Below the pieces are notes generated by a model. It did no database searches and had not been told where the DNA came from. It saw only the letters and a list, made by a program, of their open reading frames with translations. The translations under genes were made by a program, and so were the position numbers. Shown here in pieces: positions 15,342 to 18,752 of a stretch of 39,583 nucleotides of DNA; within the stretch, counting starts at the first letter, position 1, and each line of letters opens with the position of its first letter. The stretch lies in the NCBI GenBank assembly GCA_031279425.1, contig JAITIQ010000156.1, positions 1 through 39,583 on the forward strand, read 5' to 3'. The DNA comes from Accumulibacter sp. (lineage in GTDB: Bacteria; Pseudomonadota; Gammaproteobacteria; Burkholderiales; Rhodocyclaceae).

Positions 15342-16280
15342 TTATGGTGGCCGGCCCGTCAGCAGCGCATCGACTCTTTTCCCGATTCGTCCGCATACGT
15401 CGGCGGCCAGGCAGTCGAAGCTTTCCGGGCGGAGCGTGTTGGTCATCCAGGTGATCTGGCGCTTGGCGAGCTGCCGGGTGGCATAGATGCCGCGATCGCG
15501 CAGTTCGTGCCGCGGAATGATCCCGTTCTGCGCCTGCCAGACCTGCCGATAGCCGACGCAGCGCATCGACGGGAGATCCGGCGAGAGCGTGTACTTGCCG
15601 TGTAGATGAGCCACTTCATTTTCGAGTCCGGCGAGAAGCATCGCGTCGAAACGCCGGGCGATGCGCGCGTGCAGGGCGTTTCGGTCGGAAGGCAGAAGCC
15701 CCAGCGCGAGGAAGCGGTAGGGTGGCCGCTGCGTTCGTCTCTCGCCGATCCATTCCGACATCGGCCGGCCCGACAGCCGGAAGACTTCCAGCGCGCGCTG
15801 GATGCGCTGCGCATCGGTCACGGGGAGGCGCGCGGCGGTCGCCGGATCGACTCGCGCCAGCTCGGCGTGCAGGGCCGGCCACCCATCCGCGGCGGCGCGC
15901 GCGTCGAGTTCGGCGCGGACGGCGGCATCGGCCCGAGGTAGCTCCGCCAGGCCCTCGCACAGGGCCTTGTAGTAAAGCATGGTGCCGCCGGCGAGCAGGG
16001 GAATCCGGTCACGCGCCGTGATTTTTCCCATCGCGGCCAGCGCATCGCTGCGAAAACGGGCCGCGGAATAGGCTTCCTCCGGACTGATCAGGTCGATCAG
16101 GTGGTGCGGAAAGGCTTTCCGGATGGCGGCGTCGGGCTTGGCCGTGCCGATGTCCATGTCACGGAAAACCTGCGCCGAATCGACGCTGACGATTTCGACT
16201 GGAAAGCGCTCGGCCAGCCACAGGGCGACCCTCGTCTTGCCCGAAGCGGTCGGACCCATGAGCAGGATGGCAGGAGGCAT
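15342..16280 (-). CDS. miaA: tRNA dimethylallyltransferase
   Basis: [50 protein letters not shown]...[22 protein letters not shown] at 15342-15344; longer frame begins at 16319. Confidence 0.95.
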
Positions 16281-16393
16281 TTCACGCCTGTCCTGACGGG
16301 AGGGGAATTCCTGCGGCACTCATCGCGGTATGCTTTCACTCAACGAGGTTGAATTCGCCACCTTTGCCGTTGTTGAACAGAAGATGAAAAAAC

Positions 16394-16548
16394 CTTGAGA
16401 GTGTAGACTCTGCTTATAAACATACTGATTTAATTGGTTTTTGTTCCGCATACCTATCTATTGATGATCAACGCAGTATTTCATTAAAAATGATTGATAT
16501 TTCATATAGTTACCGTGTATCTGTCTATACATAGGGCAACACTCTCAA
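16394..16548. mobile_element. Candidate non-autonomous MITE-like element
   Basis: TTGAGAGTGT (16394-16403) and its exact reverse complement ACACTCTCAA (16539-16548); flanked by direct repeat AAACC (16389-16393 and 16549-16553); interior about one-third GC. Confidence 0.55.
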
Positions 16549-16597
16549 AAACCATTAGAGCACATTAACAAACTAATGCGCAGGCATTATATACACT

Positions 16598-16635
16598 CGT
16601 CATTGCGAGGAACGCAGCGACGGACAATCCATGCC
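16598..16635. repeat. Dispersed intergenic repeat cgtcattgcgaggaacgcagcgacggacaatccatgcc
   Basis: Related copy at 18555-18583 (gaggagcgaagcgacgcggcaatccat). Confidence 0.6.
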
Positions 16636-16690
16636 TTCCTCCGGCGCAGCCGCAAACTGACTGTCTTCTGTCCTCTGTCCTCTGCGCCGC

Positions 16691-18475
16691 CTACCGCCCG
16701 CGCAGGAACAGCTTGTCGAGTTCCCGCAGCGAAAGCTCTGTCCAGGTGGGGCGGCCGTGGTTGCATTGATCGGCGCGTTCGGTTTCCTCCATCTGGCGCA
16801 GCAGGGCGTTCATTTCCGGGAGCGAGAGCGCCCGCCGGGCATGCACGGCGCCATGGCAGGCCAGCGTCGCCAGGAGCTCGTCGCGCCGGGAGTTCGGCAT
16901 CTGGCTGACGCCGTGCTCGCGCAGTTCGGCCAGCAGTCCGCGCACCAGGGCCACGGGATCGGCGGCCTGCAGCAGGGCCGGGACGCCGCGCACGGCCAGC
17001 TGTGCCGGGCCCATGGGCGCCACCTCGAAGCCGAGTTCGCGCAAGGCTCCGGCGTGCTCCTCGACGGCGGCGACGTCCAGCGCGTCGGCCGTGAAGACGG
17101 CGGGGATGAGCAGCGCCTGGGTGGCGACCCGTTGCCCGTCGAAGACTTTTTTGAGTTTTTCGTACAGGATGCGCTCGTGCGCGGCGTGCATGTCGACGAT
17201 GATCAGCCCCTGCGCGTTCTGCGCCAGGACGTAGATGCCGTGCAGTTGCGCCAGGGCGTAACCCAGCGGCGGTGTATCGGGCGCTTCCGCCGGCGCTTCC
17301 GGAGCAGTCAGGGCTGCGCGGCTGAAGGCGTAATAGGCCGCCGGCTCCGCGGCGTGCGGCGCGGATTGGCGCGGCAGCATCCATGGACGGGACGGCCGGG
17401 AGGCCGACCGCGCCGAATCCATCTTCCGGAGGGCTTGGGTTTCGGCCTGAGCCGGCGAAGCCGGTGAGCCGCTCAACGGACTGGACAGCGCCTTGTGCAC
17501 GGTATGCAGCACGAACTGGTGCACCGCCCGGCTGTCGCGGAAACGCACCTCGGTCTTGGCCGGATGGACATTGACATCGACCAGGGCCGGATCGACTTCG
17601 AGAAACAGGCAGTATGCCGGGTAGCGGCTGCCGTGCAGCATGTCCCGGTAGGCTTCGCGCAGGGCATGCGCAAGCAGTCTGTCGCGCACGAAGCGGCCGT
17701 TGACGTAGCAGTACTGGGTATCGCCGCGCGGCCGCGAGTGGGCGGGCGTCGCGCAGTAGCCGAAAAGACGCAGCGGGCCGGCGCCAGCGTTTACGACGCG
17801 CGATTCGGCCAGGAAATCCTCGCCGAGAATGGCGCCGGTGCGCCCGGTGGCGTCGCTGCGGGCAAGGTGCAGGCCGACGCGCCCATTGTGCGCGAGCATG
17901 AACGCCGCTTCCGGATGAGCCAGGGCGATGCGCTTGACGGCTTCGGCACAGTACGCGAATTCCGTGGCTTCGGATTTGAGAAATTTGCGCCGCGCCGGGG
18001 TGTTGTAGTACAGCTCGCGCATTTCGACTACCGTGCCCTTGATCAGCGCGGCGGGTTCCGGCGTCGCCCCGGGTTCGCCCGGAAGGCGCCAGGCGTGGGC
18101 CGATCCGGCCTGGCGGCTGGTCAGTGTGAGATGCGCGACCGAGGCGACCGAGGCCAGGGCCTCGCCCCGGAAACCGAGAGTGGCGACGTGCTCGAGATCG
18201 GCGAGCGAGGCGATTTTCGACGTGGCATGGCGGGTCAGGGCCAAGGCCAGTTCGTCACGCGCGATGCCGCCGCCGTCGTCGATGACGCGGATCAGCTTGA
18301 CGCCGCCTTCCTCGACCTGGATGTTGATGACCGTGCCGCCCGCGTCGAGCGCGTTTTCGAGCAGCTCCTTCAATACCGAGGACGGACGTTCGACCACTTC
18401 CCCGGCGGCGATCTGGCTGATCAGCGCGTCCGGGAGAAGCTGGATCGGGGAACGAAGCGAAGCGGCTTGCGGCAT
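16691..18475 (-). CDS. mutL: DNA mismatch repair protein MutL
   Basis: [34 protein letters not shown]...[23 protein letters not shown]...[14 protein letters not shown]-term [22 protein letters not shown]. Confidence 0.97.
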
Positions 18476-18554
18476 TCGCCGATTATACCGGCCGGGCTGC
18501 CGGAAGCCGGCATCCAGCCGACAAAACGAGACGCCAATTCCCTCCCCCTCGAAG

Positions 18555-18583
18555 GCAGAGGAGCGAAGCGACGCGGCAATCCA
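18555..18583. repeat. Second copy of the gaggagcgaagcgacgcggcaatccat repeat
   Basis: Similar to 16598-16635. Confidence 0.55.
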
Positions 18584-18752
18584 TCCGGCAGCCCAGCGAT
18601 CCGGAAAGGTTTTCTCCTCCTCTTTGGATCGCACTCCAATCGCCCCGATCGCCAATCACCTCCCACTTCCCACGCATTTTCAAGTAGACTCGATCATTTC
18701 CACCTTGCTCCACCGTTTCGCATGGCGGGGGGCTTTTCCAGAAGGAGTGTCC

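Follow-up and report, generated by a model that had tools for sequence, protein, structure and literature searches.

MITEAba12 of Acinetobacter (111–114 bp) is a short, AT-rich, gene-less sequence of nearly fixed length that has its terminal inverted repeats (TIRs) in common with a co-resident insertion sequence (IS), is flanked by 9-bp duplications and occurs in more than one genus (PMC6382973). The element described here, which lies between mutL and miaA in an Accumulibacter genome, resembles it in each of these respects. It differs in its parentage, as the parent of MITEAba12 is ISAba12, which has GGCTTTGTTGCACAAA ends and is not an IS1 element, and in the make-up of its family, MITEAba12 being nearly uniform and more abundant whereas the family found here is divergent and low-copy (PMC6382973). 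The Sulfolobus MITEs SMN1 and SM3A are moved in trans by the transposases of co-resident ISs, as is probable for the present element, but their parents are ISC1733 and ISC1058, the elements are unrelated and their hosts are archaeal (PMC3718332). Among ISs, the closest comparison is with the IS1 family (e.g., the ISAba3-like IS of Tn6645, PMC6382973), whose transposase genes occur between the same GAGAGTGTTG ends in this genome and its genus, and which makes 8–9 bp duplications as here; unlike these ISs, the element is 150 bp long and has no transposase gene. The TIR printed for the ISAba3-like IS, GGTGGTGTTTCAAAAAGTATGCTG, is unlike that of the element in its letters, and its duplication is 8 bp (PMC6382973).

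The window, i.e., the whole stretch of DNA that was analyzed, comprises 39,583 nucleotides of an Accumulibacter sp. contig. The element within it belongs to a commonplace class of very small MITEs without genes, and we consider it highly likely that its ends were used in trans by a transposase of the widespread IS1 family making an 8–9 bp cut, that part of the copy was later inverted and that it is now probably a fossil.

A MITE Family with Common Ends

Three further copies or fragments were found when the stretch was compared by BLAST with its own genome: C196 (90% over 81 bp), C90 (90% over 61 bp) and C206 (79% over 79 bp). What is left of C196 and C90 is mainly the right arm, while the C206 copy is complete, having outermost ends GAGAGCGTT...AACGCTCTC flanked by a perfect 8-bp duplication (CGGCGATC). 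In the C206 copy (L004, positions 1484–1517) the MITE end is also tandemly duplicated over 17 bp (GAGAGCGTTTCCCTGCA GAGAGTGTTGCCCTGCA) inside the 8-bp target-site duplication. The genome is in 266 contigs and IS copies break contigs, so the number of copies counted is a minimum. Two more copies, L084 and L087, were identified in a Desulfovibrio MAG, so that short gene-less sequences with these TIRs are present at multiple, unrelated sites. The non-autonomous, MITE-like insertion suggested in the initial annotation is borne out by these further genomic copies, by the lack of the element from the corresponding gap in congeners and by transposase genes with the same ends.

The copies C206, C196, C90, L084 and L087 define the start of the family as GAGAGTGT and its end as ACACTCTC. 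Immediately outside GAGAG, the two adjoining bases differ from copy to copy (TT in the window and C196, CT in C90, TC in C206, TG in L084 and L087), and for this reason the outer TT and AA of the window copy are target bases and not TIR. The window element is therefore 16397–16546, which at 150 bp is exactly the length of both Desulfovibrio copies. It is assigned to the minus strand by the family-conserved arm GAGAGTGTTGCCCTATRTATAG, which reads from 16546 down; the left TIR, GAGAGTGT, is at 16397–16404 (plus strand, from the sequence and comparison with other copies), and the right TIR, which is GAGAGTGT read on the minus strand, is at 16539–16546, with conservation running on to GAGAGTGTTGCCCTATGTATAG (16525–16546).

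The target-site duplication is perfect, 8 bp long and directly adjoining GAGAG at both C206 (CGGCGATC) and L084 (TTTTTTTG). In the window, by these boundaries and repeat D1, it is formed by AAAAACCTT at 16388–16396 and AAAAACCAT at 16547–16555 (both plus strand), a duplication of ~9 bp with one mismatch (8/9 identical). The family is thus associated with a duplication of fixed length, 8–9 bp, as would be expected of a MITE that depends on the IS1 family. No duplication was seen at L087 or at a 92-bp element on contig C170, which was added, along with several IS-like starts, by pattern searches of the own genome and has GAGAGTGTTGC ends. This second, shorter gene-less element with IS1-type ends (L005, G000:C170:20830-20921) runs from GAGAGTGTTGCC to GCAACACTCTC and has a different interior; one of its flanks (GAGAAAAACCTT before GAGAGTG) is similar to the left flank in the window (AAAAAACCTT before GAGAGTG).

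IS1-Type Partners and the Likely Parent Family

The initial annotation assigned the element to no IS family and proposed a search for an autonomous IS with the same ends. When the IS1 transposase model NF033558 was used as a profile, seven stretches of the own genome matched, as did 11 of 59 other genomes; the IS1 transposase hits fall short of the NCBIfam curated full-length cut-off of 100 bits, each gene being split over two frames. The IS1-family transposase genes of the own genome and genus sit between GAGAGTGTTG ends. In the own genome, the C124 element (from 3372) starts with GAGAGTGTTGCAAAAAGG, ends with CCCTTTTTGAAATACTCTC and codes for a zinc-ribbon protein followed, past an A-run (GGGTCAAAAAAACG), by the IS1 DDE part in another frame; its transposase matches NF033558 (in two frames) and PF03400. 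In G025, an element of 798 bp has GAGAGTGTT-type ends on either side and contains the two IS1 halves, and G028 and G020 carry other IS1-type transposase elements with GAGAGTGTTG ends; NF033558 was matched in G025, G028 and others. No duplication was visible around the full-length IS1-type copies C124, G025, and G028.

The closest partner is at the edge of contig C9 in the own genome, where an element starts with GAGAGTGTTGCCCTATAGATAG, which is also the extended end of the MITE, and continues as MVECKNCHSVQIVKSG, where a reading frame begins, before the contig stops. Elsewhere in the genus it has a single match, which overlaps an IS1 transposase gene in G016. The assembly of the own genome contains no intact autonomous element that has exactly this extended TIR, C9 being cut by the contig end, and the 16 residues of its product that precede the cut-off are too few to classify alone. 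The ends of the MITE are common to co-resident IS elements, and the transposase of the partners C124, G025, G028, and others is of the IS1 family.

It is improbable, in our assessment, that the mover of the MITE was an IS1595-type or other zinc-ribbon transposase and not IS1 proper. The N-terminal zinc-ribbon model NF050000 covers both IS1 and IS1595, and the C9 partner ends after 16 residues, both of which are compatible with such a mover; against it, the other partners agree in their C-terminal half with the IS1 models NF033558 and PF03400, and both the 8–9 bp duplications and the A-run where the frame changes are in keeping with IS1. Duplications of IS1 elements are ~8–10 bp. Since the ends are common and the duplication length fits, we infer that an IS1 transposase moved the MITE; judged on these sequence features, IS1 is the most likely parent family, and mobilization would have been in trans. 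Under this IS1-dependent scenario, the GAGAGTGT(TG) ends would be recognized by an IS1-family transposase supplied from elsewhere, and an 8–9 bp staggered cut in the mutL–miaA spacer would have left AAAAACCTT and AAAAACCAT around the element. A likely parent family can now be named for an element that had been left without one.

The Window Copy and Its Inversion

At 33% GC the element is AT-rich relative to the window (65%), and its longest ORF is at most 43 aa, in agreement with the earlier description of an interior about one-third GC with no plausible protein-coding frame. The 10-mers TTGAGAGTGT (16395–16404) and ACACTCTCAA (16539–16548) form, as was correctly noted, an exact inverted repeat adjoined on both sides by AAACC as an exact direct repeat. 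Its arms are 134 nt apart; the sequence of 16388–16560 reads AAAAACC TTGAGAGTGT ... ACACTCTCAA AAACCATT. Such an arrangement is not expected by chance: 20,000 Markov re-samplings of the mutL–miaA gap yielded one case of a perfect 10-bp inverted repeat directly bordered by perfect 5-bp direct repeats, and four cases in which an inverted repeat of 8 bp was accompanied by a direct repeat of 9 bp (at most one mismatch).

From this string the initial annotation derived 10-bp TIRs (TTGAGAGTGT), a 5-bp duplication and a length of 155 bp, which would call for a mover from a transposase family with 5-bp duplications. We regard this parsing as very unlikely: the AAACC-TTGAGAGTGT...ACACTCTCAA-AAACC string is exact, but the bases outside GAGAG vary among copies (TT, CT, TC, TG), and the clean duplications of C206 and L084 are 8 bp and adjoin GAGAG. 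The exact AAACC is part of the window 9-mer, the TT and AA having been counted as TIR. A target-site duplication is indeed present, though as an imperfect ~9 bp and not 5 bp; the other copies place the ends at GAGAGTGT and ACACTCTC, and TTGAG...CTCAA spans 154 bp, not 155 bp, within which the redrawn element takes up 150 bp. A reading based on a single copy misplaces the ends of the element. IS families with 5-bp duplications were considered as parents and set aside, as the boundary is 2 bp further in and the duplication is 8 bp in other copies.

The left arm interior (16405–16467, ~63 bp, minus strand; breakpoints placed within 1–2 bp) is inverted relative to the other family copies. Turning it back raised the global alignment score from 86 to 157 with C206, from 76 to 122 with L084 and from 53 to 106 with L087, and produced a left end in which CATCAATAKATAG comes after GAGAGTGT, the arrangement of L084 and L087; C196, though incomplete, fits the non-inverted junction too. 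No inverted repeats were recognized at the breakpoints. The inversion, which would have followed insertion, displaced the left subterminal sequence of the window copy, and the duplication would also have gained its mismatch later. Given the loss of this subterminal sequence and the mismatched duplication, the copy is probably an old, immobile fossil.

The mutL–miaA Spacer

Pfam confirmed the identities of MutL and MiaA, which are both encoded on the minus strand (mutL at 16691–18655, miaA starting near 16280). The gap between the genes is ~410 bp here, compared with a few to ~170 bp from the end of mutL to miaA, without the element, in most congeners; longer congener spacers (e.g., L056, L064, and L065) contain unrelated sequence. 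No congener carries the element at mutL–miaA. An orthologous empty site with a single target copy was not found, the closest relatives (~82% MiaA identity) having contig ends or rearrangements there. The element is part of the reason for the wider spacing. A repeat-like sequence at 16595–16640, CGTCATTGCGAGGAACGCAGCGACGGACAATCCATG, with similar versions on other contigs (L009, L016, and L018), also widens the spacer.

That the element serves the spacer in a regulatory function (promoter, terminator, small RNA) and is a MITE in looks only is very improbable, for although the spacer upstream of miaA is AT-rich and MITEs sometimes carry promoters (PMC6382973), a scan found no sigma-70-like promoter or terminator within the element, there was no Rfam match, the single-strand fold of the window copy is unremarkable (z -0.53), and copies are at unrelated places with none at mutL–miaA in congeners. 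A function of the MITE at this site is not supported, and it presumably has none.

Distribution and the Desulfovibrio Copies

The family is small and rare. BLAST against 99 relatives gave only a 26-bp match in G065, the extended-TIR pattern was absent from 398 other genomes of the order (which in the taxonomy used has at least 50 families), plasmid and phage collections and viral contigs were without a match, and literature searches with the TIR letters returned irrelevant matches only. When GTDB species genomes were scanned for GAGAGTGTTGCCNTATNNATAG, the only contig recovered was that of the Desulfovibrio MAG with L084. It is conceivable, and we offer this only tentatively, that the elements represent a previously unlisted IS1-dependent MITE family with a fixed length of 150 bp, common to the own genome and to a Desulfovibrio MAG from a different phylum, which would imply horizontal spread in a shared habitat; inversion within an arm would then be one way for copies to diverge or die. 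The Desulfovibrio link is based on a MAG, in which mis-binning is possible. The family, found in two distant lineages, marks IS1 activity; no broader consequence is evident.

L087, the second element of the MAG, is exactly 150 bp, and its contig is 41 kb or longer. L084 occupies 423–572 of its contig, with TTTTTTTG on both sides; this duplication sits in the frame of a RelB/DinJ antitoxin, the upstream half of which corresponds to TIGR02384 positions 1–37, and the frame resumes right after the element. In this region (L084, 300–986) the MITE splits the Desulfovibrio antitoxin gene, while the downstream YoeB-type toxin gene is intact.
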